Shown one piece after another: positions 12,985-48,716 of a DNA stretch of 64,000 nucleotides. The notes beneath the pieces are model-generated. The model was not told where the DNA came from, ran no database searches, and worked only from the letters and a program-made list of their open reading frames with translations. Source of the DNA: Candidatus Uhrbacteria bacterium (lineage in GTDB: Bacteria; Patescibacteriota; Patescibacteriia; 2-12-FULL-60-25); assembly GCA_030649995.1 (NCBI GenBank), contig JAUSEV010000048.1, forward strand, positions 1 through 64,000, written 5' to 3'. The first letter of the stretch is position 1. Each line of letters starts with the position of its first letter. The translations under genes and the position numbers were made by a program.

Positions 12985-13184
12985 CATCAAAACGCTGTCA
13001 TTCTGAACGCAATTCTATGGAGTGAAGAATCTCCGGATTCGATCGGTCGAAGATCCTTCGTTTCGTCGGACTTCACTCAGGATGACAGAGGATAACGCTA
13101 GTCAGAGCTTCGGAGTATTGGCTAGAAAAAAAACAAAGGTATCAAAAAAGTCCGGTCGGACTTTTTTGATACCTTTGTTTTTTT
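12985..13184. repeat. composite palindromic element (family A core), copy 2, with terminator hairpin
   Basis: The family A core at 12995-13088 is in inverted orientation relative to copy 1. It is followed by a short spacer and a 23-bp hairpin at 13131-13180. The same core-plus-hairpin arrangement occurs at 48480-48716. With the flank up to 13340 it accounts for the whole gap after murG; no other gene is visible there. Confidence 0.85.
13131..13184 (+). terminator. strong 23-bp hairpin terminator
   Basis: A perfect 23-bp stem (ACAAAGGTATCAAAAAAGTC and complement) with a four-base loop GGTC is followed by a T run. It would end the mraY-ftsW-murG transcript, and as a palindrome could work in both directions. 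An identical hairpin is at 48660-48709. Confidence 0.85.
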
Positions 13185-14398: not shown

Positions 14399-14422
14399 AA
14401 AGCGGCATCCCCCGCTTTTTTT
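14399..14422 (+). terminator. intrinsic terminator after the coiled-coil protein gene
   Basis: AAAGCGG and CCGCTTT form a 7-bp stem around a 6-base loop, ending in seven T residues, 34 bases after the stop codon. The downstream sequence TTATTCTCTTTTAGGGTCAATAC is also found after the terminator at 35395-35420, where another composite repeat begins. Confidence 0.85.
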
Positions 14423-14428
14423 ATTCTC

Positions 14429-14606
14429 TTTTAGGGTCAATACTCCGCAGCTTGCTGCGTGAGCCATCTGTCATCCTGAGTGAAGTCCGACGAAACGAAG
14501 GATCTTCGATCGGAGCCGAAGATTCTTCACTCCATAGAATTGCGTTCAGAATGACAGCATTTGGGTTGAATGGTGCTACCCCGTCAGCTCTGCGGCTTTT
14601 TTATGT
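14429..14606. repeat. composite palindromic element (family A core), copy 3
   Basis: The core at 14468-14557 matches copy 5 at 35463-35556, including outer flanks GCTTGCTGCGTGAGCCAT and TACCCCGTCAGCTCTGC. It starts directly at the T-tract of the terminator upstream. No ORF is carried. Confidence 0.85.
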
Positions 14607-14657
14607 GGAAATAATGCCCATTTTTTGCGAAATTTATTACAAATCGACTCATAACCC

Positions 14658-14688
14658 TTGACAAAATTCCGGTTTTCGTGCATCCTAT
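14658..14688 (+). promoter_or_regulatory. probable sigma-70 promoter of the 14.7-kb orphan gene
   Basis: TTGACA at 14658-14663 is followed after 17 bases by CATCCT, or after 19 bases by TCCTAT. The -35 is consensus and the -10 weak. Transcription would begin about 40 bases before the ATG at 14730. Confidence 0.6.
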
Positions 14689-14729
14689 TAACCACAACAG
14701 CCCTTCAACGGGCAAACAAGGAGGTTCCC

Positions 14730-15131
14730 ATGCGGCAGGCAAACGGTCCCCCGAAGCAGCACACCTTCCTCGTTTCCATCCTCGTCGCGACGCTCCTCTC
14801 CGTGATCGGCTTCACCAACCCCGACCCGTCGACGATCGTCGCCGACAACGTGGTCACGGCGAGCGCCGACGAGACGACCCCGCCGCCGATCTTCACCGAC
14901 ACCGGCGGCGAGGACGTCACCAAGGAGGCGGCCAATACCAGCCACTACGACCCGGCGGCCGCCATCAACCACCCGACCGAGACCGACGGCGCCTACGCCC
15001 TCACCCTCTGGCGGCGCATCGGCATCGACCGGCCCATCAGCACCGACAGCAACATCGCTCCCACCGCGCGGCACCTCACCGCCTCCGCCACCGCGCGCGC
15101 CTCGCCGCCGATGCGGCCGCTCCTCACCTGA
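14730..15131 (+). CDS. hypothetical small protein, probably exported or membrane-anchored
   Basis: This 133-residue protein is unrecognised. An N-terminal hydrophobic helix (HTFLVSILVATLLSVIGF, about residues 10-27) resembles a signal peptide or anchor. The rest is rich in Thr, Ala, Asp and Pro with no visible motif. AAGGAGG lies six bases before the ATG. The coding sequence is much more GC-rich than its neighbours, suggesting foreign origin or special selection. It has its own promoter and terminator. Confidence 0.65.
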   Translation: MRQANGPPKQHTFLVSILVATLLSVIGFTNPDPSTIVADNVVTASADETTPPPIFTDTGGEDVTKEAANTSHYDPAAAINHPTETDGAYALTLWRRIGIDRPISTDSNIAPTARHLTASATARASPPMRPLLT

Positions 15132-15194
15132 CCGGCAGCGCGGCCATTCATCAATCAATGGTGATAGATGGATGGCCGCGCAAACTCTCTACTC

Positions 15195-15227
15195 GAACCC
15201 CCGACACGATCTCGTGTTCGGGGGTTC
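15195..15227 (+). terminator. hairpin terminator of the 14.7-kb orphan gene
   Basis: GAACCCCCGA and TCGGGGGTTC form a strong GC-rich stem with an interior ACGA/TCGT extension, followed by TTCAATTTATTT. The T-tract is interrupted, but the position 60 bases after the stop supports a terminator. Confidence 0.7.
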
Positions 15228-15262
15228 TTCAATTTATTTAGGGTTTCAGCCAAATGACCCTC

Positions 15263-15374
15263 GGTCATTCCCTTGAAGAAGGGAATCCAGCGGCCGAATA
15301 AAAAAGGTTATGAGCTCCTGTACCTTCATAACCCTTTTATTTCATAGCTAGATTCCCGCCTACGCGGGAATGAC
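15263..15374. repeat. pair of family C palindromes flanking a hairpin
   Basis: GTCATTCCC-TTGAAGAA-GGGAATCCA at the left and GATTCCCGCC-TACGCGGGAATGAC at the right enclose a hairpin, AAAAGGTTATGA/TCATAACCCTTTT at about 15302-15338. The layout (two repeats around a terminator-like hairpin) recalls the family A composites. It occupies most of the gap before bipA. Confidence 0.75.
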
Positions 15375-15478
15375 ACAGGGGGGGGGCTGTCAGCACACAC
15401 TCATTGGAAACCCCTTGGATATCCATAAGGACAACCTGCTGAACACTTAGAGGACATCCTGGCCGCGACTACAATTTA

Positions 15479-15507
15479 TTGACACCATTCTCAAAATTCG
15501 ATATGAT
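15479..15507 (+). promoter_or_regulatory. sigma-70 promoter of bipA, near-leaderless
   Basis: TTGACA (15479-15484), a 17-base spacer and TATGAT (15502-15507) form an almost perfect promoter. The expected start near 15513-15515 is only two to four bases before the bipA ATG at 15517, implying a nearly leaderless mRNA without a Shine-Dalgarno site. Confidence 0.85.
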
Positions 15508-15516
15508 CCTGCCCTC

Positions 15517-17346
15517 ATGACAGACATCCGAAATATCGCGCTCATCGCTCACGTTGACCATGGGAAAACCACCTTGGCTGATTCGTTATTGAAACAATCC
15601 GATACGTTTAAGGAACGTGGACTTGAGGGTGAAACGATTCTTGATTCCAACGAATTGGAACGCGAACGGGGCATTACCATCTTGGCAAAAAATGTGGCGG
15701 TCATGTACAACGGCACAAAAATCAACATTGTTGATACTCCGGGTCACGCGGATTTTGGCGGTGAGGTCGAACGCATTATGAATTTGGTTGATGGCGCGCT
15801 TTTGTTGGTTGACGCCAAAGAAGGACCCATGCCGCAAACACGTTTTGTGTTGCGCAAAGCCATTCAAGCTGGACACCGCATTATTCTCGTCATCAATAAA
15901 ATTGATAAGCCGGATGCTCGGCCGGATTGGGTTTTGAATCAAACCTTTGATTTGTTTGTAACGCTCGGCGCATCCGATCGCCAACAAGATTTTCCCGTGA
16001 TTTACGCGTCCGCCAAACAGGGCAAGGCCGGACTGGAGGATGATCTTTCTAAAATGACAAACATCAAGCCTCTTTTTGAAACGATCATCAAAGAAATTCC
16101 GGCACCGGTCGTTGACGCTTCCGCTCCGCTTCAAGTTTCCGTCGCAAACATCAATTATGACAACTATAAAGGAAAGATGGCGACCGGACGCGTTGTACGA
16201 GGAACATTTCGACCCGGTGCGGTTATGTGGATCAATCGTGAAGGTAAGATGGTTCCAGCCAAGATCGCGAGCTTGATGGGTTTTATGGGGATGAACCGCA
16301 TTGAAGTCGCGGAAGCCAAGGCCGGAGACATTGTGGCGTTTGCCGGCATTCCGGAAATCAATATCGGTGAGACCGTGGCCGATCTCGAGAAGCCGGAAGC
16401 GTTGCCAATCATTCAAATCGAAGAGCCTACCGTCAAAATGACGTTTGGCGTGAATACCTCTCCATTTGCGGGACAAGAAGGCCAATTTACCACCTCGCGC
16501 AACATCAAAGAACGTTTGGAACGTGAACTGCAAAACGATGTGGCGCTTCGAGTCGAACCCGGCACAGGTGACGGAACATTTATCGTCTCCGGCCGTGGAG
16601 AATTGCATCTCGCGATTTTGATCGAGCGCATGCGTCGCGAGGGTTTTGAGTTGCAAGCGTCGCGTCCGCAAGTCATCATGAAAAAATCCGCCAGCGGTGA
16701 GCTTGCCGAACCGTTTGAGGAAGTTTCGATCGAATGCCCGGAAAACGCGAGCGGATCAGTCATCGAAAAAATGGGACGACGCAAGGGCGAAATGCAAGAT
16801 ATGCGTGTCGACCCTTCGACAGGCTCAGGGCAAGCCACAGCGTATCTGCAATTTATGATTCCCACGCGCGGGCTCATCGGTTATCGCACGGAATTTATGA
16901 TGGACACGCGGGGGCAGGGGATTATCAACTCAATTTTTCTCGGGTATCAACCGTTTATCGGAACCATCGAAACTTCGCCTCACGGTTCGTTGATTTCCTT
17001 TGAAACGGGCGAATCAAACAGCTACGGTCTTCAAGCCGCTCAAGAACGAGGACAACTGTTTATCGGTCCCAACGTAAAGGTTTATCAAGGGATGGTGATC
17101 GGCCAAAATGCCAAACCGGAAGATTTGGAAGTAAACGTGTGCAAGGAAAAGAAACTTTCCAACATGCGTTCCAAGGGTGACGGAGTGGCGGAAGGATTGA
17201 CCACGCCGAGAAACATGAGTTTGGAGGAAGCGCTCGAATATCTTGGCGATGATGAACTCTTGGAAGTCACGCCGAAAAGTCTCCGAGTGCGCAAACAATT
17301 TTTGAAAAATTTTGAGAGAAAGAGGGCGGAACAATCGGCAAACTGA
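15517..17346 (+). CDS. typA: translational GTPase TypA/BipA
   Basis: BipA is a ribosome-binding GTPase used in stress adaptation and 50S assembly. The G domain shows G1 HVDHGKTT near residues 12-19, G3 [14 protein letters not shown] and G4 [12 protein letters not shown]. Domain III, the EF-G-like domain V and the BipA-specific C-terminal domain follow; the length of 609 residues is normal. Residues about 432-439 (DPSTGSGQ) come from a CCTTCGACAGGCTCAGGGC-type repeat inserted in frame. The promoter gives a nearly leaderless transcript. Confidence 0.95.
16812..16834. repeat. short CTTCGACAGGCTCAGGGC-type repeat inside bipA
   Basis: This 23-base segment belongs to a repeat type seen in many bacterial genomes. 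Here it encodes PSTGSGQA in a variable loop of BipA. A related GTGAGCTTGTCGAACT segment lies before mraY at about 9605. Confidence 0.6.
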
Positions 17347-17420
17347 AACCTCTCTAACTCCCCTTATCAGGGGAGGATATGAGCGATCTTAAACCCCCTG
17401 ATAAGGGGGCAGGGGGTTTC
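17347..17420. repeat. family D palindromic repeat between bipA and the protease gene
   Basis: CCCCTTATCAGGGG and CCCCCTGATAAGGGGG arms flanked by ACCTCT and GGGGGTTTCC, matching the element inside uvrB. It lies between convergent genes and may act as a bidirectional terminator-like hairpin. Confidence 0.85.
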
Positions 17421-17429
17421 CTGTAAGTT

Positions 17430-18584
17430 TTATTCCTCCAACGGCTGGCCGATCGTGTAGTTGGTAAAAAACTCATCCGGAATGTCGTGAACCAAGCTGG
17501 ACCAGTTGGGTCCCCATAGGGAGCGAGCTTTGATTTCCGTCGGCACCCAACGCATGGTTCCAAACCCATCCACAACCACATACACACGCGGCGAGGTGGC
17601 TGATTTAACGAGCGTGCCCGGCTTAAACGTGACATTTCTTAATAACGCATAGTTTGCCAATGCCGTGGGAGCAACATTGATGACGCTGTCAAAATCCGGA
17701 TACCACGAGAGAAAAGTGGCGGTATTGGGAAAGCTCAAACGCTCCGTTCCGGGAAGAAGGCAATACACCGTAGGACTGACTCTGGTTCTCGCGATGTAGG
17801 TACATCCCAAATCTTGTTGATTGATAAAGACCGCGTTTTGATGATACTGAAAATAATTATCATGACTGAAAAAGCGATCGTGTTCGTTTGTTCCATACGT
17901 ATCAAGCCACGTCATAATCGCGCGAATATCCACAAGCTCATTGGTGGTGCTGGCGGTTTTTCCCGACTCGTAGGTGATGGTGACAACGCGCGTGGGAATG
18001 CCGATAAAATGAAATTTGGAATCAACCGCCGCGCCGCCGGAATCGCCCGGAGCGATCCCTGCGCTGGTTTGAATAAAGCCGCTCAAGAATCCTTGAATGA
18101 CCCCATGACTGGTCATGAGTTGATTTCCGCTTCCGGAATAACCGAACGTTTGAATCTGATCGCCAATTTGGGAAAATTCTTGCGTCGCGAGTGCCGGGAA
18201 TGGAAGGGTTAAAATGGTCTGACTGACAGGTTCACCGATTTGGAGGATGGCAAAATCGCGGCTTTTTTCCGGTTGATAGACGGAGCGATTGACCGCGGCT
18301 TTGTAAAAATAAAACGGCGGCTTTTTTGGATCTTCCAGAAAACCGATCAAGCATTCTTTGGCGGGGATGCCTGTTTCTATGTCTATCGCCACATGGGCGT
18401 TTGTCAGCACATATCCGCGGTCACCTTGAATGACCGTTCCGGAACCCTGGCGACGATCGCATTGCACCCAAACCACAGCCTGCCAGACTTTTTTTGGAAT
18501 CGCCACGTCCAGTTCCGCGTAGGCCGGAGCCACCTGGGTCAGAAAAAAAATGATGATGGGCAGGCTCAAAAAGTATCGTCGCAT
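17430..18584 (-). CDS. secreted trypsin-like serine protease
   Basis: The 384-residue protein has a signal peptide (hydrophobic to about residue 20, AYA cleavage-like site near 21-23). A trypsin-like domain follows with a visible catalytic triad: H64 in LTNAHV, D110 in SRDFAIL and S182 in GDSGG. This resembles the DegP/HtrA protease core, but no PDZ domain follows. Instead residues about 265-384 hold two copies of a small motif (VYCLLPGTERLSFP... and VYVVVDGFGTMRWVP...), possibly a cell-surface binding repeat. It probably works outside the cytoplasmic membrane. Confidence 0.85.
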   Translation of the reverse strand: MRRYFLSLPIIIFFLTQVAPAYAELDVAIPKKVWQAVVWVQCDRRQGSGTVIQGDRGYVLTNAHVAIDIETGIPAKECLIGFLEDPKKPPFYFYKAAVNRSVYQPEKSRDFAILQIGEPVSQTILTLPFPALATQEFSQIGDQIQTFGYSGSGNQLMTSHGVIQGFLSGFIQTSAGIAPGDSGGAAVDSKFHFIGIPTRVVTITYESGKTASTTNELVDIRAIMTWLDTYGTNEHDRFFSHDNYFQYHQNAVFINQQDLGCTYIARTRVSPTVYCLLPGTERLSFPNTATFLSWYPDFDSVINVAPTALANYALLRNVTFKPGTLVKSATSPRVYVVVDGFGTMRWVPTEIKARSLWGPNWSSLVHDIPDEFFTNYTIGQPLEE

Positions 18585-18668
18585 AACATTTGTTTGTATG
18601 TTCAGCCCAGTGTAGCAGACAAAAAACGCTTGTGCTATTCTGGGCTTCTATGATCCATGTATTGAACT

Positions 18669-19250
18669 ATGAGGCGTGAAATTGTTTTAGATATTGAAAC
18701 GCGGAATACCTTTCAAGACATCGGTGTGTATAACCCCGCGCTTTTGCAGGTCTCTTTAGTCGGGGTGTATTTTTATGAAACAGACTCTTTTGAGTCCTTT
18801 TTGGAAGAGGATTTACCAAAACTCTGGCCTCGTCTGGAACGAGCCGATTGCATTATCGGTTACAACCTTATCGGCTTTGATTATCCCTGTTTGCAATCTT
18901 ATTACACGGGCGATATCTTACGGCTGCCGACCATAGATCTCTTGGCGGAAATTGAAAAAAAATTAGGGTTTCGCATAAAACTGGATTCAGTGGCCCAGGG
19001 GACCCTTGGGATGGGGAAGAGCGGCGACGGTTTGATGGCGGTAGAGTATTGGCGCAAGGGAGAGATCGAAAAATTACGTGAATATTGTTTGCAAGACGTT
19101 CGAGTGACGCGAGACGTGTATGAGCACGCTTTGCGCCATGGAGAAGTTCAATTTTTTGATCGTCAAGGTCAAAAACAAACGATTCCACTACCCCTCTCGC
19201 CTCCGGAATCAAAGGATCGACCGGCGATGAACCTGTCCTTGGGACTTTAA
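18669..19250 (+). CDS. MrfB/YprB-like 3'-5' exonuclease (RNase H-like fold)
   Basis: The 193-residue protein has DEDD-type exonuclease motifs: Exo I in IVLDIETRN (D8, E10), Exo II in IIGYNLIGFDYP, and Exo III in YCLQDVRVTRDVY. The closest recalled family is YprB/MrfB, the nuclease partner of the helicase YprA/MrfA in mitomycin-lesion repair in Bacillus. No such helicase is adjacent here. It precedes nrdJ on the same strand, but nrdJ has its own promoter. Confidence 0.78.
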   Translation: MRREIVLDIETRNTFQDIGVYNPALLQVSLVGVYFYETDSFESFLEEDLPKLWPRLERADCIIGYNLIGFDYPCLQSYYTGDILRLPTIDLLAEIEKKLGFRIKLDSVAQGTLGMGKSGDGLMAVEYWRKGEIEKLREYCLQDVRVTRDVYEHALRHGEVQFFDRQGQKQTIPLPLSPPESKDRPAMNLSLGL

Positions 19251-19303
19251 ACAACATTATCCACAGAAAGGGTCGCAAAAGAGTTCTTGACCACTATATC
19301 TTG

Positions 19304-19312
19304 TGGTATAAT
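19304..19312 (+). promoter_or_regulatory. extended -10 promoter of nrdJ
   Basis: TGGTATAAT is a perfect extended -10 element. A TTGACC sequence lies 14 bases upstream of TATAAT, too close for an ordinary -35. Transcription would start near 19319, giving a leader of about 40 bases to the ATG at 19359. No B12 riboswitch is apparent in that short leader. Confidence 0.75.
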
Positions 19313-19358
19313 TCAATTTCAGCCACAATATATAGACACTTATTCTTTAACGATTTAT

Positions 19359-22300
19359 ATGAGTGAACACACTTTCTCTCCCGTTACCTCCTCCGAAACG
19401 CACCCCAAAGATTTATTGGAAGCCAAGCAAGCCGCTCAAGCCGTATGGCAGTATGTGACCTCGGTCAAATCCATAAAAAAACGCGATGGCCGCAGCGAAG
19501 ATTTCCAACCAGAAAAGCTCGAAAAAGCGATCCGACGCGCTTTTCTTGACGCCGGCACGCAAGACGAAGCTCTCATCCGCGCCACGGCGGAAAATGTGGT
19601 ATCTCGCCTGCAACATCGTTTCGACGGATTGCAAGTTCCAACGGCTGACGAAGTGAGAGAGATCGTCAGTTTAACGCTTATTGATCGAAATTTGATTCAT
19701 ATTGCGAAACGGTATTTGGAATATCGATCACAAACTTTGCGTGTGAGCGATCAACCCGTTTATGGAAAGGGAATCCACGTTTCACGATTTTACACAGAAC
19801 CCGCGATCCATCCGTTTGATGCCATTTCGTGGGAAAAACGCGATGCCGTTATCACCAATGACAAAGGGAAAGTGGTTTTTGAACAAAAAGAAGTGGAGGT
19901 ACCGAAATTTTATTCGCAAACGGCAACCAACATTATCGTTTCCAAATATTTTCGAGGCAGATTAGGCACTTCGGAACGAGAAACTTCCGTCCGTCAATTG
20001 GTCAATCGAGTAGCAAAAACCATAGCCGGTTGGGGTCGTCGCGGCGGATATTTTGCGATCGCGGAAGATGCCGATGCTTTTGAAGCCGAGCTCACATCCA
20101 TTCTCGTCAATCAACGCGCCGCTTTTAACAGCCCTGTCTGGTTTAACGTGGGCGTCAATCCAAAGCCGCAATGCTCGGCTTGTTTCATCAATTCGGTACA
20201 GGACGACATGCGCTCCATTTTGAATCTTGCGGTTACGGAAGGGATGTTGTTTAAGTATGGCTCCGGCTCCGGCGCCAATCTCTGGCGTTTACGGTCATCC
20301 AAAGAAAACCTTTCGCAATCATCGGGAAAATCATCCGGCCCGGTCTCTTTCATGCGTGGACTCGATGCTTTTGCCGGGGTCATTAAGAGCGGCGGCAAAA
20401 CACGTCGCGCCGCCAAAATGGTGGTGTTGAACGCGGATCATCCCGACATCATGGAATTTGTTTGGTGTAAAGCAAAAGAAGAACGCAAAGCGCACGCGTT
20501 AATTGATTCGGGTTATGACGGAGGCATCAATGGCGAAGCGTACAGTTCCATCTTTTTCCAGAACGCCAATAATTCCGTGCGAGTCAGCGATGAGTTTATG
20601 CGAGCGGCGGAAACGGATGGCGAGTGGTGGACGCGCTTTGTGACCAACCGAGAACCCTGCGAACGATTTCACGCTCGTGAGATTATGAACCAAGTCGCCC
20701 AAGCGGCATGGGAATGCGGTGATCCGGGCGTGCAGTATGACACTACGATCAACGATTGGCACACGTGTTCAAATACCGATCGCATTCACGCTTCAAACCC
20801 CTGTTCGGAATACATGTTTTTGGATGATTCAGCCTGCAATCTCGCCTCCATCAATCTTATGCGTTGCCGGAAAGCCAATGGTGATTTTGATGTGACCGCC
20901 TACGAACACTGTTGCCGCATCATGATTATGGCGCAAGAGATTGTGGTGGATTTTTCCAGTTACCCGACGCCGGCCATTGAACAAAATTCGCATGATTATC
21001 GTCCTTTGGGTTTGGGTTATGCGAATCTTGGCTCGCTCCTTATGTCCATGGGGTTGGCCTATGATTCCGACGAAGGGAGAAATATCGCCGCGGCCGTAAG
21101 TTCGGTCATGTCCGGGGTCGCTTACGAACAATCCTCCAACATCGCGGAAAAACTCGGGGCATTTCGCGGGTATGCCAAAAACGAACAACCCATGCTGCGG
21201 GTGATGCGCAAACACCGTGATGCGGCGTTGCAAATTTCCCCACAAGGCGTGCCACAAGATCTTTGGCAAGAAGCTCGCGTCTGTTGGGACAGAACCGTGG
21301 CGGCAGGGGAAAAATTCGGATATAAAAATTCGCAAATTTCCGTGATCGCTCCAACCGGAACCATCTCGTTTTTGATGGATTGTTCCACCACGGGCATTGA
21401 ACCGGATATCGCGCTCGTCAAATACAAATGGTTGGTGGGTGGGGGTATGATGAAAATGGTGAATGATACCGTTCCCGAGGCTCTGCGTCGTTTAAGCTAT
21501 TCCGAGGAGGAGTGTAAAGATATTCTGGCGTATATCGATCAGCATGACACGATCGAAGGCACTCCACACCTCAAGGCATCTCACCTTTCAATTTTTGATT
21601 GCGCTTTTAAGCCGGCTAAAGGTGAACGATCCATTCATTACACGGGTCATGTAAAAATGATGGCGGCGGTGCAACCGTTTATTTCCGGCGCCATTTCCAA
21701 AACCGTCAACATGCCCGAACATGTCACAACGGAAGAGATCGCTCAAGTGTATCTCCAAGGTTGGAAACTTGGACTCAAAGCGATCGCCATTTACCGCGAT
21801 GGCTGTAAAAGATCACAACCGTTGACAACAAGTCGGGAAGAGGTGACAAAGAAAAAGGAAAATCCATCTGTCATTGCGAGGAACGAGTCTTCGAGTGACG
21901 CGGCGATCTCCGAAAAAGAAGAGAGATTGCTTCACTTCGTTCGCAATGACACTCAAGCGCCTCGTCGTCGGCGCTTGAGCGATGAGCGGCGTTCGATTAC
22001 GCACAAATTCCAAATAGGTTCCCATCAAGGGTATATCACCGTCGGTCTGTACGATGATGGAACGCCCGGCGAAGTGTTTATTACCATGAACAAAGAGGGG
22101 AGCGTGATCAAAGGATTGGTGGACTCGTTTGCCACGGCGATTTCCATCGGCTTGCAATATGGCGTGCCGCTCAAATTGTGGGTGGATAAATTCGCGCATG
22201 TGCGCTTTGAACCTTCCGGTTTTACCCAAAATCCGCAAATTCGCGTGGCCAAATCCATCGTGGATTACATTTTTCGATGGCTTGCCCTCAAATTTTTGTC

Positions 22301-22544
22301 GCTCGAAGATCGCGCCTCTATCGGGCTAAACAACCTTGACGAAATTAAAATTCCAACCTTGGCGGAAACCGTGGCATCGGTCGTTACGTCGATTCCCGTG
22401 CAACAAACCTCGCTTTTACCAAATCCTCCAACCTTCAACAATCAAGCCGACGCTCCCGCCTGCGACACATGCGGTTCCATCATGGTGCGTAACGCGGCCT
22501 GCTACAAATGCTTGAATTGCGGAGCAACGAGCGGGTGTTCATAA
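19359..22544 (+). CDS. nrdJ: adenosylcobalamin-dependent ribonucleotide reductase (class II)
   Basis: NrdJ reduces ribonucleotides to deoxyribonucleotides using adenosylcobalamin. An ATP-cone lies near residues 35-110 (IKKRDGRSEDFQPEKLEKAI). The catalytic barrel includes FNSPVWFNVG, QCSACFINSV, NPCSEYMFLDDSACNLASIN and APTGTISFLMDCSTTGIEP. The C-terminus ends in a zinc-ribbon-like CDTCG...CYKCLNCGATSGC that would re-reduce the active site. I chose the ATG at 19359; the frame is open to 19287 but that part overlaps the promoter. About residues 837-864 are encoded by a family B repeat inserted in frame. Confidence 0.95.
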   Translation: MSEHTFSPVTSSETHPKDLLEAKQAAQAVWQYVTSVKSIKKRDGRSEDFQPEKLEKAIRRAFLDAGTQDEALIRATAENVVSRLQHRFDGLQVPTADEVREIVSLTLIDRNLIHIAKRYLEYRSQTLRVSDQPVYGKGIHVSRFYTEPAIHPFDAISWEKRDAVITNDKGKVVFEQKEVEVPKFYSQTATNIIVSKYFRGRLGTSERETSVRQLVNRVAKTIAGWGRRGGYFAIAEDADAFEAELTSILVNQRAAFNSPVWFNVGVNPKPQCSACFINSVQDDMRSILNLAVTEGMLFKYGSGSGANLWRLRSSKENLSQSSGKSSGPVSFMRGLDAFAGVIKSGGKTRRAAKMVVLNADHPDIMEFVWCKAKEERKAHALIDSGYDGGINGEAYSSIFFQNANNSVRVSDEFMRAAETDGEWWTRFVTNREPCERFHAREIMNQVAQAAWECGDPGVQYDTTINDWHTCSNTDRIHASNPCSEYMFLDDSACNLASINLMRCRKANGDFDVTAYEHCCRIMIMAQEIVVDFSSYPTPAIEQNSHDYRPLGLGYANLGSLLMSMGLAYDSDEGRNIAAAVSSVMSGVAYEQSSNIAEKLGAFRGYAKNEQPMLRVMRKHRDAALQISPQGVPQDLWQEARVCWDRTVAAGEKFGYKNSQISVIAPTGTISFLMDCSTTGIEPDIALVKYKWLVGGGMMKMVNDTVPEALRRLSYSEEECKDILAYIDQHDTIEGTPHLKASHLSIFDCAFKPAKGERSIHYTGHVKMMAAVQPFISGAISKTVNMPEHVTTEEIAQVYLQGWKLGLKAIAIYRDGCKRSQPLTTSREEVTKKKENPSVIARNESSSDAAISEKEERLLHFVRNDTQAPRRRRLSDERRSITHKFQIGSHQGYITVGLYDDGTPGEVFITMNKEGSVIKGLVDSFATAISIGLQYGVPLKLWVDKFAHVRFEPSGFTQNPQIRVAKSIVDYIFRWLALKFLSLEDRASIGLNNLDEIKIPTLAETVASVVTSIPVQQTSLLPNPPTFNNQADAPACDTCGSIMVRNAACYKCLNCGATSGCS
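21869..21951. repeat. family B palindromic repeat inside nrdJ
   Basis: The element begins TGTCATTGCGAGGAACGAG and ends GTTCGCAATGACA, with a central GGCGATCTC/GAGATTGC palindrome. It is translated as SVIARNESSSDAAIS and following residues between the catalytic domain and the C-terminal region. The inverted copy in valS (49955-50037) gives SVIARSESASDAAIS. Confidence 0.9.
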
Positions 22545-22558
22545 AAATTCGCGCTCTT

Positions 22559-22646
22559 TGTCATTGCGAGGAGTTCGACGACAAAGCAATCTCCCCGAAG
22601 CTAAGAGATTGCCGCGTCACTCGAAGACTCGCTCCTCGCAATGACA
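22559..22646. repeat. family B palindromic repeat downstream of nrdJ
   Basis: TGTCATTGCGAGGAG at the left and CTCCTCGCAATGACA at the right, with inner CAATCTCC/GAGATTGCC arms, form an imperfect palindrome of about 88 bases. It lies between nrdJ and the terminator of the convergent orphan gene. Confidence 0.9.
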
Positions 22647-22659
22647 GAAGTTGGTAAAT

Positions 22660-22693
22660 AAAAAAAGACCCGCGCTTGAGTTCAGCGTGGGTC
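22660..22693 (-). terminator. intrinsic terminator of the 22.7-kb orphan gene
   Basis: On the minus strand GACCCACGCTG and CAGCGCGGGTC-like arms (22693-22667) form a GC-rich hairpin followed by seven T residues. It sits just after the stop codon of the minus-strand gene. Confidence 0.85.
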
Positions 22694-22706
22694 GAAGGAC
22701 CATGGA

Positions 22707-23096
22707 TCAGTGACGTCCTGCCGACGCGTGGGTCTGACCGTTCGCCATGGACAGCTCGCGACCGAGGAAGGTGACCTGCAGGGTTGTGTGGGAGAGTACC
22801 ACCTCGAAGTGGTGCTTCCGACCACCCATGCCGAAGTCGGTGGACAAATTTCCTACCTCCTTTTCTTTCGGGCTGCGTTCGCAGCCGTCATCGAGCTCGA
22901 GATCTTGCACGGTGATCTGCGCCCTGACGTGCTTTACGAGCGCAAGCCAGAGCCTGCTGTCGGTCATGTCTCGGTTTACGATGACACTCGCGCCCGTGGC
23001 AGACAAAGCCGAGAAGTTGACCTCCAGCATCCATTTCCAGAAGATTGCCGCTGCGGCTCCGGCATCGAAACGAATGGACCTTACTCCGGTGGGCAT
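22707..23096 (-). CDS. hypothetical orphan protein
   Basis: This 129-residue soluble protein is not recognised; no motif or TM segment is evident. It contains a hydrophobic beta-like region near residues 95-115 (HHFEVVLSHTTLQVTFLG). The start at 23096 is set by AGGAGG four bases upstream. The frame stays open upstream to 23156, but those codons lie in the leader. It has its own promoter and terminator and better ribosome-binding signals than most neighbours. Confidence 0.7.
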   Translation of the reverse strand: MPTGVRSIRFDAGAAAAIFWKWMLEVNFSALSATGASVIVNRDMTDSRLWLALVKHVRAQITVQDLELDDGCERSPKEKEVGNLSTDFGMGGRKHHFEVVLSHTTLQVTFLGRELSMANGQTHASAGRH

Positions 23097-23144
23097 GATG
23101 CCTCCTGTGTGGATGGTGAAAGAACCGGTTAAAATGACACTCAT

Positions 23145-23173
23145 ATAATCTAACAAAACTGAAGTTTTGTCAA
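23145..23173 (-). promoter_or_regulatory. sigma-70 promoter of the 22.7-kb orphan gene
   Basis: On the minus strand TTGACA (23173-23168), a 17-base spacer and GATTAT (23150-23145) form a good promoter. The -35 box lies three bases from the divergent cobalamin adenosyltransferase start codon. Confidence 0.75.
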
Positions 23174-23176
23174 CCT

Positions 23177-23737
23177 ATGCCAGATTCTCGACCGGAAAAG
23201 TGGGGTTTGATTCAGCTTTTCACCGGAAATGGCAAGGGAAAGACTACGGCCGCTTTGGGGACGGCTATACGAGCCATCGCCAAAGGAAAAAAAGTCGCCA
23301 TCGTCTTTTTTGACAAGGGCGGGGAGACGCATTATTCGGAACGCGAGCTGATCAAATTGCGACTGCCTGAAATCGATCTGTATCCAACAGGTCTTGATCG
23401 CATTGATCCAAAAACAAATAAATTTCGTTTTGGTGTGATTGATGAAGATCGTCAAGAAGGGGAGCGAGGGCTTTCCATCATCAAAAAATTGTTTGATGAA
23501 CAGCGTCACGATCTTATTATCTTGGACGAAATAAATTCTTCAACAGCCCTTGGCATCATCCAAGAAATTGACGTGCTCGCGCTTCTCGATCATCGGCCGC
23601 CGAATATCGAACTTATTTTGACCGGTCGCGACGCTCCCCAATCATTCAAAGACAAAGCCGATCTCGTCACAGACATGACGCTCGTCAAACACTATTTTTA
23701 TCACGGAGTTCCGGCGAGAGAGGGTTTGGATTTTTGA
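23177..23737 (+). CDS. cobO: corrinoid adenosyltransferase, CobO/BtuR type
   Basis: The 186-residue protein transfers adenosyl from ATP to cob(I)alamin or cobyrinate. The atypical P-loop FTGNGKGKTTAALG at residues 15-28 and the C-terminal LDEINSSTALG and ILTGRDAPQSFKDKADLVTDMTLVKHYF are characteristic. No other cobalamin biosynthesis gene is in the window, so it probably adenosylates salvaged corrinoid. It lies 630 bases after nrdJ on the same strand, and the product is the cofactor NrdJ needs; the two are separated by an orphan gene on the other strand. Confidence 0.92.
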   Translation: MPDSRPEKWGLIQLFTGNGKGKTTAALGTAIRAIAKGKKVAIVFFDKGGETHYSERELIKLRLPEIDLYPTGLDRIDPKTNKFRFGVIDEDRQEGERGLSIIKKLFDEQRHDLIILDEINSSTALGIIQEIDVLALLDHRPPNIELILTGRDAPQSFKDKADLVTDMTLVKHYFYHGVPAREGLDF

Positions 23738-23748
23738 TCGGACAGCCC

Positions 23749-23777
23749 TTGACAAAAGACCATTTTTATGCTATACT
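23749..23777 (+). promoter_or_regulatory. consensus sigma-70 promoter of the 23.9-kb orphan gene
   Basis: TTGACA (23749-23754), a 17-base spacer and TATACT (23772-23777) make one of the strongest promoters in the window. Transcription would start near 23784, giving a structured leader of about 150 bases. Confidence 0.9.
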
Positions 23778-23783
23778 ATTTAT

Positions 23784-23930
23784 TGAAAATGGCTGATAAA
23801 GCCATGAAAAAACCCTGATTCTGCGCGAGCTGATCACAAAGAGAGAGGTGATCAATTCTTGCAGAGCCGGGGATCATCAAAAGATGACTCCTTGACGGCT
23901 CGATCAAAAAGATGACCGAGGAGGTCAAGC
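23784..23930 (+). promoter_or_regulatory. structured 5' leader with a nine-codon ORF
   Basis: The leader opens with a hairpin ATGGCT-GATAA-AGCCAT (23789-23805) that is also the start of a tiny ORF, MADKAMKKP (23789-23818). A second stem is TGATCAC/GTGATCA (23831-23837 with 23848-23854) within outer TCTGC/GCAGA. A third, GAGCC...GGCTC, surrounds GGATCATC/GATGACTCC. A last hairpin, GACC-GAGGA-GGTC (23914-23926), holds the AGGAGG ribosome-binding site of the next gene. It matches no riboswitch I know. Confidence 0.6.
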
Positions 23931-24203
23931 ATGAATTGGGGACAGCTGTTCCATCGCGTTTTCACCCGTCCGGCATGGTTCTTCGGAACCCTCGCGCTTC
24001 TGGGGTTCATCACCCTCATGATCGCGAGCGTCATCAGCCCGGGCCTGCCGGAGCGGATGATGATGGCCGTGTGGGTCGCGGTACGCCCGATGTTCCAGCT
24101 CCTCTTCGAGGCCGCGGTGGTAATCTTCATCGTCGGCTACGGACTCCGGATGCTCGTCGGAGGAGGACACAGGAGCGGAGGAGGAAACCGCGGGGGGCAC
24201 TGA
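23931..24203 (+). CDS. hypothetical two-TM small membrane protein
   Basis: A 90-residue protein with two hydrophobic helices (about residues 14-35 and 47-75) and a Gly/Arg/His-rich tail (GGGHRSGGGNRGGH). AGGAGG lies six bases before the ATG. The coding sequence is GC-rich compared with its neighbours. It has a consensus promoter, a long structured leader and a dedicated terminator, so it is probably well expressed. The function is unknown. Confidence 0.75.
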   Translation: MNWGQLFHRVFTRPAWFFGTLALLGFITLMIASVISPGLPERMMMAVWVAVRPMFQLLFEAAVVIFIVGYGLRMLVGGGHRSGGGNRGGH

Positions 24204-24255
24204 AAGAAAAACGCGCGAGTCCGATCGAATGCCCCATCGATCGCTCGTGCCTGAC

Positions 24256-24291
24256 TCCCGTCGAAAGCTCTTCGGCGGGATCGTTTTATTT
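24256..24291 (+). terminator. intrinsic terminator of the 23.9-kb orphan gene
   Basis: TCCCGTCGAA and TTCGGCGGGA pair (one G-U) around a five-base loop, followed by TCGTTTTATTTATT. It lies about 50 bases after the stop codon. Confidence 0.75.
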
Positions 24292-24547
24292 ATTCTTCTT
24301 CTTCGACCCCCAAATCCTGTAAACTCATCTCTTCCCTTTTAATTTGTTTTTCCAAACGATCTAATGCTTTCAGTCCATCCACCTCTTCCTCTTCGTCAAC
24401 AATTTCTTCAACAACCTTGGGCTCACCCTCATCATCAAGTTCTTTTTCATCTTTTGATAAAACATCGATCGCGGCGAGATTTCCCAAATCCTCGGCCTCA
24501 TCCAATCCTTGAGTATTCCAGTCATCGTCTCTTGGTCCGTATGTCAT
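24290..24547 (-). CDS. hypothetical acidic protein
   Basis: An 85-residue, strongly acidic protein rich in Glu and Asp, with a helical C-terminal half (DGLKALDRLEKQIKREEM). No enzymatic motif is seen. The start could be at 24547 (MTYGPRDDDW) or at upstream in-frame ATGs, 24556 or 24583. No Shine-Dalgarno sequence is visible at any of them. Small acidic proteins of this kind are common in CPR genomes. Confidence 0.6.
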   Translation of the reverse strand: MTYGPRDDDWNTQGLDEAEDLGNLAAIDVLSKDEKELDDEGEPKVVEEIVDEEEEVDGLKALDRLEKQIKREEMSLQDLGVEEEE

Positions 24548-24672
24548 AAAAGTCATAAGGGTTATTGTCGGCGAAGATAACACAAGAGTGTCTATAAGGG
24601 GAGTGTGGATAAGTCAAGGGGCCTATGGCGCGACGTATAGCTTAGGAAAAGAAAATGATATAAGCTGTGGTC

Positions 24673-25710
24673 ATGTTTGAAATTATGCTGATCGTTCTTG
24701 TAGTGGTGGGTTTTGCCATACTTTTTTGGCTGATCGTCAAACTCCAACGCGCGCAAGCACCTCCCATGGACCCGCAAGCCCTCCTGCTTTTGCAACGTCA
24801 GATTGAAACATTCAATCAGGATATGAAGGGATCTCTTACGGAAAACGTTCGCCAGCAACAAACCGCGAGCCATCAGATGACGAGCGCGGTACGTGATGTC
24901 ACGGAACGTCTCGTCAAAATTGAGGAAACGAATAAACAAGTTTTATCCTTTTCCGGTCAGCTCGAAAATCTGCAACGCATTTTGACGAATCCAAAACAAC
25001 GCGGCATCCTCGGTGAATATTATTTGGAAACGCTGCTCAAAAATATTTTTGCGCCGGATCAATATCAGATGCAGTACAAATTTAAAGATGGAGAAATCGT
25101 GGATGCCGCGATTTTTGTGCAAAATAAAATCGTACCGGTGGATTCAAAATTCAGTTTGGAGAATTACAACCGTTTAGTGATGGAACAAAATGAGACGGAA
25201 CGTGAACGCTTGGAAAAACTTTTTGTCAACGATCTTAAAACGCGTATAAAAGAAACGGCAAAATACGTACGGCCGGAAGAGGGGACTATGGATTTTGCTT
25301 TTATGTTTATTCCGCATGAAGCGATTTATTATGATTTGTTGATTAACAAAATCGGCGCGGTCACGGATGACACGGAAAATTTGTTGCAAAAAGCGGCGAG
25401 CACGTATCACGTGATCATCGTTTCTCCCACCTCATTCACCGCGTATCTGCAAACGGTGTTGCAAGGGTTAAAAGCGCTGAAAATAGAAGAGCAAGCCAAG
25501 GAGATACGCGTGCGCATCGCGGATCTCTCAAAACATCTTCAAGCCTATGAACAGCATCATCAGGCGATCGGCCGAAATTTAGGCACCACGGTCAACCAAT
25601 ATAATTTGTCCAACAGAGAATTTGCAAAAATTGATAAAGACATGCTCAAAGTTACGGGGCAGGGGATGGGATTCCAACCCACTTTGATTGATAAGCCGCA
25701 GGATGAGTAG
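24673..25710 (+). CDS. rmuC: DNA recombination protein RmuC homologue
   Basis: The 345-residue protein has an N-terminal TM helix (about residues 1-22), a coiled-coil region, and the RmuC core with GILGEYYLETLLKNIF, VPVDSKFSLENYNRL, FAFMFIPHEAIYYDLL and IIVSPTSFTAYLQTV. RmuC proteins limit rearrangements between inverted repeats in Escherichia coli and carry a PD-(D/E)XK-like nuclease fold. That link is notable in a genome full of inverted repeats, but causality is not implied. A GTG two codons earlier is an alternative start. Confidence 0.9.
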   Translation: MFEIMLIVLVVVGFAILFWLIVKLQRAQAPPMDPQALLLLQRQIETFNQDMKGSLTENVRQQQTASHQMTSAVRDVTERLVKIEETNKQVLSFSGQLENLQRILTNPKQRGILGEYYLETLLKNIFAPDQYQMQYKFKDGEIVDAAIFVQNKIVPVDSKFSLENYNRLVMEQNETERERLEKLFVNDLKTRIKETAKYVRPEEGTMDFAFMFIPHEAIYYDLLINKIGAVTDDTENLLQKAASTYHVIIVSPTSFTAYLQTVLQGLKALKIEEQAKEIRVRIADLSKHLQAYEQHHQAIGRNLGTTVNQYNLSNREFAKIDKDMLKVTGQGMGFQPTLIDKPQDE

Positions 25711-25721
25711 ACTATAAAATT

Positions 25722-25811
25722 GTGTCATTCTGAACGAAGTCAGACGGAGTGAAGAATCTTCCTGTTCGATCGAAGATCCTTCGTTGCATCGGATTTCACT
25801 CAGGATGACAG
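25722..25811. repeat. family A palindromic repeat, copy 4 (core only)
   Basis: GTCATTCTGAACGAAGTC at the left and TCACTCAGGATGACAG at the right enclose the GAAGAATCTTCC...GAAGATCCTTCG centre. Unlike the other copies it lacks the outer GGGGTATTGA flanks. It lies between rmuC and the DUF218 gene. Confidence 0.85.
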
Positions 25812-25830
25812 AAACGAACATAGCAAGTTT

Positions 25831-26451
25831 ATGAATAAATTTCTCCGCTTCTGTATTTTTCTTGGTGCCATGGTTATTGCGATACCAACTTTGATGATCG
25901 CGGATGTGCAGCTGCGTTACATCAATCGGATGCATTATGAGTCGGTGTCGCCAAAACAACGGGCGTGGACGACGGCATTGGTTTTGGGAGCCAGCATCAA
26001 AGGAAAGGGCGTGCCATCTGAAGCACTTCAAGATCGACTGGATACGGGAATATGGTTATATAAAACGCGTAGCGCTGGACGCATCTTGATCACCGGCGAT
26101 GACGGAAGACATGAAGTGGATGAAATTTCCACCATGAAACAATATCTTTTCGCAAATAACATTCCTGAATCTGATCTTCTCGCAGACGGCGAAGGTTATC
26201 GTACCTATGAAAGCTGTAAACGCGCACGACAGGTAGCAACATCAACTAAAACCTTTGTGGTGGTTACCCAGCGCTTCCATCTTGGACGAGCATTGTATTT
26301 GTGCAATAAAATGGGCGTGGACGCGTTTGGAAGCGTGGCGGATCGGCAATCCTATCGGCGCATTAAGTACTTTTGGATTCGTGATATGTTTGCGAGTGTC
26401 AAAGCCTGGTGGGACATCAATATTGACGCCCCGAAGTCGCCAGTATCCTGA
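25831..26451 (+). CDS. DUF218/SanA-like membrane-anchored protein
   Basis: The 206-residue protein begins with one TM helix (about residues 5-25) and continues with the DUF218 (YdcF/SanA) fold: ALVLGASIKGKGVPSEALQDRLDTG, ILITGDDGRHEVDEISTMKQYL, YRTYESCKRAR and VVVTQRFHLGRALYLC. In E. coli SanA affects envelope permeability, and other family members act in envelope biogenesis. The catalytic reaction is not established. It stands alone between repeats. Confidence 0.85.
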   Translation: MNKFLRFCIFLGAMVIAIPTLMIADVQLRYINRMHYESVSPKQRAWTTALVLGASIKGKGVPSEALQDRLDTGIWLYKTRSAGRILITGDDGRHEVDEISTMKQYLFANNIPESDLLADGEGYRTYESCKRARQVATSTKTFVVVTQRFHLGRALYLCNKMGVDAFGSVADRQSYRRIKYFWIRDMFASVKAWWDINIDAPKSPVS

Positions 26452-26471
26452 TCTATCTTGAAAATTGAACA

Positions 26472-26708
26472 CTACGCTCGCGCCAGTTCTCTGCGAAACA
26501 AGCGCACGAGATCGGTATATTGATCAGTCAGCTTTGCGTCAAGATAATCTTTGCTAACCATGCGCGTTTCAAATTTTGCGAATTCACGAGCTAATTCCTG
26601 TTTTGTAACCATTTCTGATCGAATCGTCTTAAATTGTTCATCAACATGAGACGCGAATGCGTTCATCGCATCTAACAGATCCTGAAGTGTCGGCTCGGAT
26701 GAGGGCAT
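26472..26708 (-). CDS. hypothetical small coiled-coil protein
   Basis: A 78-residue, wholly helical protein whose heptad pattern (MNAFASHVDEQFKTIRSEM ... EFAKFETRM) suggests a coiled coil. Similar short proteins with 'LL.AI..F...VD..F' openings are frequent in CPR genomes. No function can be given. It faces the DUF218 gene tail to tail. Confidence 0.65.
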   Translation of the reverse strand: MPSSEPTLQDLLDAMNAFASHVDEQFKTIRSEMVTKQELAREFAKFETRMVSKDYLDAKLTDQYTDLVRLFRRELARA

Positions 26709-26938
26709 AAAAAAGAGGGGATAATGAATTATAGTATACCCCGTTCCATGAATTTAAAACCCTGTCAAGATGTGGATAAATCATTTTTGATAAAATTTTA
26801 GCCCCTCTGGACAAGCTTCCCATTCTTTGCTACGCTGGTTTTGTTACGCAAATCACTCACGAATTTGCTAGAAGATTCGCCGACGCGCGCGTAGCCAATT
26901 CTTATTCACGACATCATAAGGACCACAAGATTTACACG

Positions 26939-27010
26939 ATGAACCTCGCGTTTTTACGCAACGTGATGTTTGGAATTGGCCGAACGTTGGCGAGTTGTTT
27001 GAGATTTTAA
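26939..27010 (+). CDS. putative 23-codon leader peptide of the ABC exporter
   Basis: An ATG-to-TAA ORF encodes a hydrophobic, basic peptide beginning MNLAFLRNVMFGIGR. It ends 20 bases before an intrinsic terminator that lies directly upstream of the ABC exporter gene. Bases 26986-26994 (GTTGGCGAG) near its 3' end can pair with the left arm of the terminator (27035-27043). This layout suggests ribosome-controlled attenuation. AAGGA lies about 20 bases upstream, rather far for a ribosome-binding site. No clear promoter was found at 26709-26938, which otherwise holds no gene. Confidence 0.5.
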   Translation: MNLAFLRNVMFGIGRTLASCLRF

Positions 27011-27028
27011 TCAACCATTTGAAATCTT

Positions 27029-27060
27029 AAATCCCTCGCTAACTGGCGAGGGATTTTTTT
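27029..27060 (+). terminator. intrinsic terminator / candidate attenuator before the ABC gene
   Basis: ATCCCTCGC (27031-27039) pairs with GCGAGGGAT (27046-27054) and is followed by seven T residues. Only about 40 bases separate it from the ABC exporter ATG, too few for a separate recognisable promoter, so the exporter mRNA must usually read through it. Confidence 0.85.
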
Positions 27061-27099
27061 CATCTCACACCGAACCTTGAAAACCGAAAGGGAAATGCC

Positions 27100-28953
27100 A
27101 TGGACGCGGAATCGGAAAACTGGAAAGACTATCACAAAGGCGTCGGGGAAATCCTCCATGTGTACCGTTGGATCTGGAAGGAGTTGTTGAACCAGGAAAG
27201 CCGTCGGCTGCTCCGGCCGATCATGCTGTTCACGGTGTTTGGGAATGCGCTCGCCATGCTGGTGCCTTGGGTGTTTGGTCAACTGATCGATCAGGTGCGT
27301 ACGCATAAGCTCCAGACGACCGTTCTTCTTCTGGGAGGATTTGCCGCGGCAAAGTTTCTCCACAAGCGGTGCGGTCATTACGTGGGATGCGCGCGGGAGA
27401 TGTTTTTCGGGGCGAGCCGCGGCAGCGTCGATGAGGCGACGAATCGTCTGTTCTTCGAAAAATCCTTGGGGCAAATGCTGCAAGATCATGACCAGTTGTC
27501 TGCGGCAAACCTGAACAAGGGAAGAAATCAGCTCTATCAGATCATGGATCTCTTACTGTTTGAAGGCGTCGAGACGGCACTCATGCTCCTCATGGCGTTC
27601 GTCTGTTTGTGGATACTCCATCCGCTCTCCGGCGCGATCGTGACGACGGTATTCTTCATCTTCTTTTTGTGGTCGCGCTTCTTGCATCGTAAAATCGCAG
27701 AGGTCTGCGTGCCTATTGATGTGGCCTTTCGTTGGCTGGAACGCCATCGCACCGAAACATGGGATAAGGTAGAAAAAATCAAAACCGGCGGCAAAGAAGA
27801 AGAAGAGGTCAGCTTCATGGCTCATCGGTTTCGAGAAATCCTGACTAAGGATCGTTCCTTCTGGCTGTGGTTCATCAAACAACTGACACGACGGAGTATG
27901 TTAAATGATCTGGCTCTGCTTGCAATCGTCATGATTGGCAGTTGGCACATGTGGCGCGGTGAATGGAGTTTGGGATTGTTTTATCCGGTGTATACATGGT
28001 CTTGTCTCATGGTTGACAGCTTCGAACGGATGAGCCGGATTGAACAGCGGATCAGCTGGAGTTTTCCATCGGTCAGCTCACTCAAAGAAACGCTAACCAT
28101 GAAGCCGGATATTCGTGATACTGCCAATGCCATCGAACCGGATGTCGCAGAAGGCGTGCATGTTGAGGTTTTACACGTCTCACACGCCTACCGTTTGCGG
28201 ACCAATGACCAAGCGCGGCACGCGGTTCTCTCGGATGTGAGTTTTACGATTGAACCCGGCGAAGTGGTGGCACTCTTGGGTCCGAGCGGAGCAGGGAAAT
28301 CGACGCTCATGCGTCTCATCCAGCGCGGGATGGATCCGGAACAAGGCGCCATCTTTGTGAACGGTCATGACCTGCGGAACCTACGGCTTCGTTCATGGCT
28401 CATGAATACCGGTTATATCCCGCAACAACCAATCATCCTGACAGGCACCATCCGTTCCAATCTTCTGTACGGTCTGGATCCGGATGCTCGGACACGAGTG
28501 AGTGACGAAGAGCTGCTTAAACTCATGCGTGAGTTGCGTATCGATTTCGGCGGACGTTTGACTCATGGGCTGGAAACTCCGGTGGGGGAACGGGGGATCA
28601 AGCTCTCCGGTGGAGAGGCGCAGCGTTTGAGTATCGGTTCGGCCGTAGCCAAGCGACCACGATTCATGTTGATCGACGAGGCTACGAGCTCGCTCGATTC
28701 AACCACGGAAAAAGAAGTACAGATCGGCTTGGCCAGAGCTCTTCAAGGGAGAGTGAGCGCACTCGTGATCGCGCATCGGTTGAGTACAGTGCGTCACATC
28801 TGCAACAAGTTTGTGGTACTCAAGCGCGTGGATGATCTCGGAGAAGGGGAGTCGCAGGTCGAAGCGGTCGCCAACTCGTTCGAAAATCTGTATCCCATCT
28901 CTCGAACCTTCCGCAGTCTGGCAGATGATCAGGGAATCATCATCGCACTTTAA
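27100..28953 (+). CDS. ABC transporter, fused permease and ATPase (exporter type)
   Basis: The 617-residue protein is a half-size ABC exporter: an N-terminal membrane domain with about six TM segments (to about residue 330) and a C-terminal ATPase. Walker A is LLGPSGAGKST near residue 392, the signature LSGGEAQRLSIG near 502, and Walker B FMLIDEATSSLD near 522, with the H-loop in IAHRLST. The substrate is unknown; lipid, peptide or drug are all possible. GGGAAA precedes the ATG, and the upstream leader ORF and terminator suggest attenuation. Its own terminator follows. Confidence 0.9.
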   Translation: MDAESENWKDYHKGVGEILHVYRWIWKELLNQESRRLLRPIMLFTVFGNALAMLVPWVFGQLIDQVRTHKLQTTVLLLGGFAAAKFLHKRCGHYVGCAREMFFGASRGSVDEATNRLFFEKSLGQMLQDHDQLSAANLNKGRNQLYQIMDLLLFEGVETALMLLMAFVCLWILHPLSGAIVTTVFFIFFLWSRFLHRKIAEVCVPIDVAFRWLERHRTETWDKVEKIKTGGKEEEEVSFMAHRFREILTKDRSFWLWFIKQLTRRSMLNDLALLAIVMIGSWHMWRGEWSLGLFYPVYTWSCLMVDSFERMSRIEQRISWSFPSVSSLKETLTMKPDIRDTANAIEPDVAEGVHVEVLHVSHAYRLRTNDQARHAVLSDVSFTIEPGEVVALLGPSGAGKSTLMRLIQRGMDPEQGAIFVNGHDLRNLRLRSWLMNTGYIPQQPIILTGTIRSNLLYGLDPDARTRVSDEELLKLMRELRIDFGGRLTHGLETPVGERGIKLSGGEAQRLSIGSAVAKRPRFMLIDEATSSLDSTTEKEVQIGLARALQGRVSALVIAHRLSTVRHICNKFVVLKRVDDLGEGESQVEAVANSFENLYPISRTFRSLADDQGIIIAL

Positions 28954-28961
28954 ACACATCG

Positions 28962-28991
28962 TCCGACAGACACTCTCTGTCGGATTTTTTT
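28962..28991 (+). terminator. intrinsic terminator of the ABC exporter gene
   Basis: TCCGACAGA and TCTGTCGGA form a perfect 9-bp stem around CACTC, followed by seven T residues. A second hairpin, AAGACC-CTTAA-GGTCTT with a T run, follows at 29048-29069. Confidence 0.9.
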
Positions 28992-48479: not shown

Positions 48480-48716
48480 AAACTACCCCGCAGCAGAGCT
48501 GGCGGGGTATCAATCCTAAATCAAAACTCTGTCATTCTGAACGTAATTCTATGGAGTGAAGAATCTCCGGATTCGACCGAAGATCCTTCGTTTCGTCGGA
48601 CTTCACTCAGGATGACAGATGGCTCACGCAGCAAGCTGCGGGGTATTGACTCGGAGAAAAAACAAAGGTATCAAAAAAGTCCGGTCGGACTTTTTTGATA
48701 CCTTTGTTTTTCTGAT
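48480..48716. repeat. composite palindromic element (family A core), copy 6, with terminator hairpin
   Basis: It contains the left flank TACCCCGCAGCAGAGC, the core 48529-48618, the right flank ATGGCTCACGCAGCAAGCTGC, and the 23-bp hairpin at 48660-48709 identical to that at 13131. It is the most complete copy in the window and lies upstream of tyrS. Confidence 0.85.
48660..48709. terminator. second copy of the 23-bp hairpin
   Basis: The same 23-bp stem and GGTC loop as at 13131-13180, with T residues downstream on the plus strand and A residues upstream, so it could terminate in either direction. No plus-strand gene ends here. Confidence 0.7.

Follow-up and report, generated by a model that had tools for sequence, protein, structure and literature searches.

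At positions 27100..28953, the window (a 64,000-nucleotide stretch of a Candidatus Uhrbacteria contig) carries a gene for an ABCB-type half exporter of 617 amino acids, with a transmembrane domain and an ABC ATPase; this gene and all features described around it are on the + strand. A profile search gave a clear match to PF00005 and placed PF00664 just below its cut-off, no cut-off was reached among the 25 of 186 NCBIfam matches listed, and the nearest solved structures in the PDB are of the ABCB1, ABCB10, Sav1866 and BmrA kind. A terminator follows the gene at 28961..28985. Upstream lies a leader open reading frame (ORF) of 23 codons (26939..27010), encoding the peptide MNLAFLRNVMFGIGRTLASCLRF and closed by a stop codon, and after it an intrinsic terminator (27029..27056; stem AAATCCCTCGCT / GGCGAGGGATTT, then a T-tract). 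The exporter ATG stands 43 nt after the terminator stem. An initial annotation of this DNA had described both the 23-codon ORF and a terminator about 40 bases before the ATG, and both are present. It had also held that a separate promoter between terminator and exporter would speak against attenuation; we found nothing resembling a promoter within these 43 nt. A consensus match upstream of the leader predicts a promoter at 26808..26836 (TGGACA-17-TACGCT, with TG before the -10 element), and the corresponding position in the sister species G001 reads TAGACA-17-TAACCT, likewise a consensus match. Judged from their sequence, leader and exporter look like a transcription unit of their own.

We next describe the pairings available to the leader RNA. 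The end of the leader ORF (segment 2, 26985..26996) can pair with the terminator's left arm together with its loop (segment 3, 27035..27043). The initial annotation had claimed a nine-base pairing including one G-U, and this pairing is found exact to the base, with GTTGGCGAG (26986-26994) opposite CTCGCTAAC (27035-27043). The upper part of this antiterminator (2:3) is a hairpin around the stop codon (26999..27030), in which 26999-27010 pairs with 27019-27030. Segment 2 also has a second partner, segment 1 in the 5' UTR (26874..26885), and the resulting pairing, 26874-26885 with 26985-26996 (1:2), is an anti-antiterminator; it is lengthened in the window leader by a further pairing between 26894-26902 and 26972-26980. 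Sequence comparison and folding show two alternative partners for segment 2, segments 1 and 3, and segment 3 can also pair with segment 4 to form the terminator (3:4). Together, these three pairings make the leader a classical four-segment attenuator. The anti-antiterminator, the predicted promoter of the leader and a peptide motif that recurs among the leaders had no place in the initial annotation. Attenuators of the E. coli trp type rely on four segments whose 1:2, 2:3 and 3:4 pairings are mutually exclusive. The leader described here shares this exclusivity but lacks control codons, and its segment 2 lies inside the leader ORF, while segment 1 is found either in the 5' UTR or where the ORF begins.

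Taken by itself, the window shows a 2:3 pairing only moderately beyond chance. The terminator's upstream pairing, at -17.7 kcal/mol, is the third strongest when the 22 terminator-like hairpins of the two strands are ranked, two others reaching -18.8 kcal/mol; of these top three, only the hairpin at 27029-27056 has a short ORF ending just upstream. Against 300 shuffled ORF ends (mononucleotide shuffling), the pairing gave p = 0.003.

To extend the analysis to relatives, we collected loci by means of the exporter protein, because similarity of the leader DNA was convincing only for G001, a Candidatus Uhrbacteria MAG of the same genus. The search covered near relatives, GTDB contigs, 380 genomes of the class (from which the best 30 loci were taken) and two families; weak, partial matches in other phyla (L079-L092) were left out. 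Removal of duplicates yielded 40 distinct orthologous loci from Uhrbacteria and other Patescibacteria, of which four were not assessable (no gene start found in L064, contig ends in L070 and L109, and a broken gene in L129). A leader ORF followed by a terminator directly upstream of the exporter was observed at 31 of the 36 assessable loci, and was absent from L075, L076, L106, L123 and L124. The distance from leader stop to terminator stem was 17-24 nt in 21 of 24 loci with a correctly picked terminator (exceptions: 14, 14 and 32 nt). When we required an ORF of 23 or more codons whose end falls 11-32 nt upstream of the stem, 28 of 28 loci had one, versus 2.65 expected from dinucleotide shuffles, a contrast that is overstated since the loci had been selected for having an ORF. 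These 28 loci, defined by a readable leader ORF, are the set used for the pairing, masking, ORF and shuffle tests; L125, L128 and L077 joined later, and their 2:3 pairing was computed outside the permutation tests. In G001 the leader ORF is 33 nt longer with the frame kept; relative to that ORF (L023, 1311-1415), the window ORF is correspondingly shorter in frame and lacks one hairpin. A leader motif pattern searched in one family matched 3 of 42 genomes, in all cases at exporter loci; this was a single pattern in a single family, and the leader may be used at other genes elsewhere.

Across relatives, the sequences place the 2:3 pairing far beyond chance. We computed the duplex energy between each ORF end and each terminator left arm plus loop, with own and with swapped partners, for the 28 loci. 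Own partners averaged -18.3 kcal/mol and swapped partners -11.6 kcal/mol, a difference reached in 0 of 100,000 permutations. Two windows over the ORF end each behaved in the same way (0 of 20,000 permutations), and by contrast, control windows further upstream in the leader showed no own-partner effect in these loci. Removal of five closer relatives, leaving 23 loci, gave the same result. Tested against shuffles of their own ORF ends, 22 of the 28 loci reached p ≤ 0.05; the six that did not are L073, L074, L103, L108, L110 and L112. The paired sequences themselves differ between loci: L028 pairs CTGGGCAAGA with TCTTGCCCAG, L025 pairs TTAGGCAA with TTGCCTAA (with one mismatch further in), and L061 pairs TTCGCAA with TTGCGAA. 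In these loci, segments 2 and 3 change together. Loss of the pairing in relatives had been named beforehand as evidence against the antiterminator; instead, the pairing is retained there with altered sequence. Of the pairs in the window leader (G000), G001 keeps 19 of 23 in the antiterminator, 10 of 10 in the 3:4 core and 9 of 12 in the stop-codon hairpin.

The anti-antiterminator is locus-specific as well. Segment 2 showed an own-partner effect with the region around the leader start, in windows from -70 to -40 and from -10 to +20 relative to the ATG (0 of 20,000 permutations each), and no such effect in windows further from the ATG. The conservation check proposed in the initial annotation found the leader, followed by a terminator, at 31 of 36 loci and the 2:3 pairing locus-specific. 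G001 keeps 9 of 12 pairs of 1:2 and 9 of 9 pairs of its extension. In modeled folds of the growing transcript of the window leader, 1:2 has a predicted probability of 0.90 up to the leader stop and 2:3 a predicted probability of 0.78 once segment 3 has emerged; in the predicted fold of the full leader, 1:2 (0.90) coexists with 3:4 (0.92). The G001 leader is predicted to fold like the window leader. In the truncated-transcript model, naked RNA would already favor 2:3 (mean of 28 loci, 0.68), which means that termination in an untranslated leader would depend on 1:2 outcompeting 2:3. The full-length window fold suggests that it does.

To model the effect of a translating ribosome, we blocked its footprint and calculated, for the 28 loci, the probability that the ORF end is paired with the segment 3 core at the last step before the terminator becomes complete. 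The mean predicted probability was 0.68 for free RNA; a ribosome on the start gave 0.76 and one on codon 10 gave 0.72. By contrast, a ribosome on the stop codon gave 0.19, and one placed two codons before the stop gave 0.11. Masking of the stop codon thus largely removes the antiterminator in silico, as would be expected from the earlier proposal that ribosome position decides read-through. In this model, completion of the leader would lead to termination, and a halt before its end would lead to read-through. Masking of the start raised the modeled probability by more than 0.05 in five of the 28 loci and lowered it in two, suggesting that 1:2 is stronger in some loci than in others.

Based on the recurrence of leader and terminator at 31 of 36 loci and on the locus-specific complementarity of ORF end and terminator arm, which bear out the attenuator reading of the initial annotation, we propose, with a probability of roughly 0.8, that the leader is a ribosome-dependent transcription attenuator of the exporter that most likely senses hindered translation. 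Transcription would begin at the leader's own predicted promoter. If the leader is not translated, 1:2 and the terminator would form, and the exporter would be off. If a ribosome reaches the leader stop, it would cover segment 2 and open the stop-codon hairpin, the terminator would form, and the exporter would again be off. If a ribosome is slowed within the leader, 1:2 would be broken and segment 2 left free, such that 2:3 could form and transcription could read through into the exporter. The likely signal is impaired translation, caused for example by ribosome-targeting compounds from neighbors, which the exporter could relieve. Conservation of the ORF and the frame-preserving change in its length among relatives are what a translated leader would be expected to leave.

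The arrangement resembles that of bmrB-bmrCD in Bacillus subtilis, where antibiotic-slowed translation of a leader permits transcription into an ABC exporter (Reilman et al., 2014; PMC4191407). Both systems have a short ORF before an ABC exporter, of multidrug type in B. subtilis and a candidate for that type here, with a terminator, an antiterminator and an anti-antiterminator, and in both ribosome progress would decide read-through, in our case as modeled; the bmrB terminator, however, lies inside the leader coding region, whereas ours follows the stop codon, mostly by 17-24 nt, and bmrCD, as a further difference, encodes a heterodimer (PMC4191407). The role of the bmrB anti-antiterminator was left unclear by the authors (PMC4191407). 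The likeness is one of arrangement and logic, and we claim no sequence kinship; drug induction of the leader is suggested by analogy only. A full-text search of open-licence papers on Patescibacteria returned no report of such a leader. We conclude that the leader is most likely a lineage-restricted variant of ribosome-mediated attenuation known from other bacteria. Little is known of gene regulation in Patescibacteria (Candidate Phyla Radiation), and the leader gives a tangible example, conserved among relatives, in which ribosome progress would control transcription. It also predicts a gene that is switched on in these bacteria when ribosomes are hindered: these tiny, uncultivated bacteria probably complete the RNA for a pump only if translation of a short gene falters. 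As a short natural cassette of about 220 nt, the leader lends itself to tests in an ordinary laboratory host.

We also examined the leader peptides. They evolve fast, even between close relatives: those of L073 and L074 differ by 14 non-synonymous and 3 synonymous codon changes. Their last residues are largely set by segment 2. The peptides share a weak common motif, P-x-F-(D)-G-[AVL]-V. With the last 14 codons set aside, 10 of 28 leaders contain the dipeptide FG, against an expectation of 2.46. None of 5000 shuffles reached this number, although the count is post hoc since the motif came from dipeptide screening; TTYGG occurs 10 times in frame and 5 times out of frame. A Gibbs search returned x-P-x-F-(D/G)-(G/A)-(A/V/L)-V with a score of 210, versus 192 ± 3.3 for 40 shuffles. 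Close relatives and ORF ends were left out of both the FG and the Gibbs tests. Between the codon for the motif glycine and segment 2, the median distance is 44 nt (quartiles 40 and 54; 21 loci, motif places picked by the analyst), such that a ribosome paused a few codons past the motif would be positioned immediately 5' of segment 2. The window leader is the odd one, being the shortest, at 23 codons, with its motif only 14 nt from segment 2. Judging from its position, the motif is perhaps a programmed pause. In drug-sensing leaders such as those of erm, vmlR and msrD, the sensor is ribosome stalling on the leader peptide. The present leader may share this kind of sensor; its motif is not known to match any stalling motif. 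We tentatively raise the possibility, which we regard as the less probable outcome, of a nascent-peptide sensor proper to Patescibacteria, in which the motif would halt the ribosome, with or without a small molecule, leave segment 2 free, and so place export under an arrest code that these bacteria's ribosomes alone would read.

We considered whether the short ORF might instead encode a small peptide, bacteriocin- or signal-like, that the exporter secretes, with the terminator serving only to keep peptide mRNA in excess of exporter mRNA. The position of the ORF directly upstream of the exporter and the recurrence of a motif at the peptide level are consistent with this; however, the 3' end of the ORF complements the terminator arm locus by locus, which a substrate gene would not need, the peptides are very unlike even between close relatives (14 versus 3 for L073/L074), and the exporter has no match to the C39 peptidase models searched, a domain expected of a double-glycine exporter. 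We therefore regard a secreted peptide as unlikely. It is quite unlikely, too, that the leader is an antiterminator RNA bound by a ligand or protein, with an incidental ORF. An elaborate 5' UTR fold common to G000 and G001 would suit such an RNA, but the stop codon lies at a nearly fixed place (28 of 28 loci versus 2.65 expected, in loci selected for an ORF), the length change between G000 and G001 keeps the frame, and the predicted 5' UTRs vary widely, with no common aptamer-like core visible by eye. At gathering threshold, moreover, Rfam reported only two tRNAs in the window and no family in the leader region.

Permissive Rfam matches over the terminator hairpin were to Leu_leader, PyrR and His_leader, at about half the gathering score or less. 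These scores, far under gathering for Leu_leader (25.6 versus 50 bits) and His_leader (17.3 versus 49 bits), argue against a trp/his-type attenuator that responds to amino-acid starvation, as do the gene behind the leader, which encodes an exporter rather than a biosynthetic enzyme, and the 30 peptides inspected by eye, in which no run of codons for a single amino acid resembles those of trp and his leaders. We consider this reading very unlikely, despite its identical 1-2-3-4 logic. Finally, an ordinary terminator with a chance complement would fit the rank of third among 22 in the window alone, but is contradicted by the locus-specific complementarity in relatives, and we give it almost no weight.

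The exporter subfamily seems confined to the window's class within our sample of the phylum: 2 of 379 genomes matched at E ≤ 1e-120, both from this class and one of them the window's own. On contig C13 of G210, three subfamily copies (L102, L123 and L124) lie close together on one strand (14422-26751), and only L102 (= L063) has the full leader. Two copies contain in-frame stops, four in L129 and one TGA in L128; these are perhaps decaying genes or assembly errors.

In 26 of 30 loci, the sequence shortly before the leader matched a sigma-70-like promoter (consensus matches, no shuffle control), giving predicted leader 5' UTRs of about 1-96 nt. A Shine-Dalgarno-like site precedes 2 of 30 leader ATGs. 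Genes in the window are themselves poor in such sites: of 49 ORFs, 6 have one at their first start and 21 have one when all starts within 30 codons are considered. We dropped the missing Shine-Dalgarno site as a peculiarity of the leader because window genes lack it too. Elsewhere in the window, a palindromic element with 20-base arms (CAAAGGTATCAAAAAAGTCC / GGACTTTTTTGATACCTTTG) and a 4-base loop occurs at 13134-13177 and at 48663-48706, and is possibly a mobile or repeated element.
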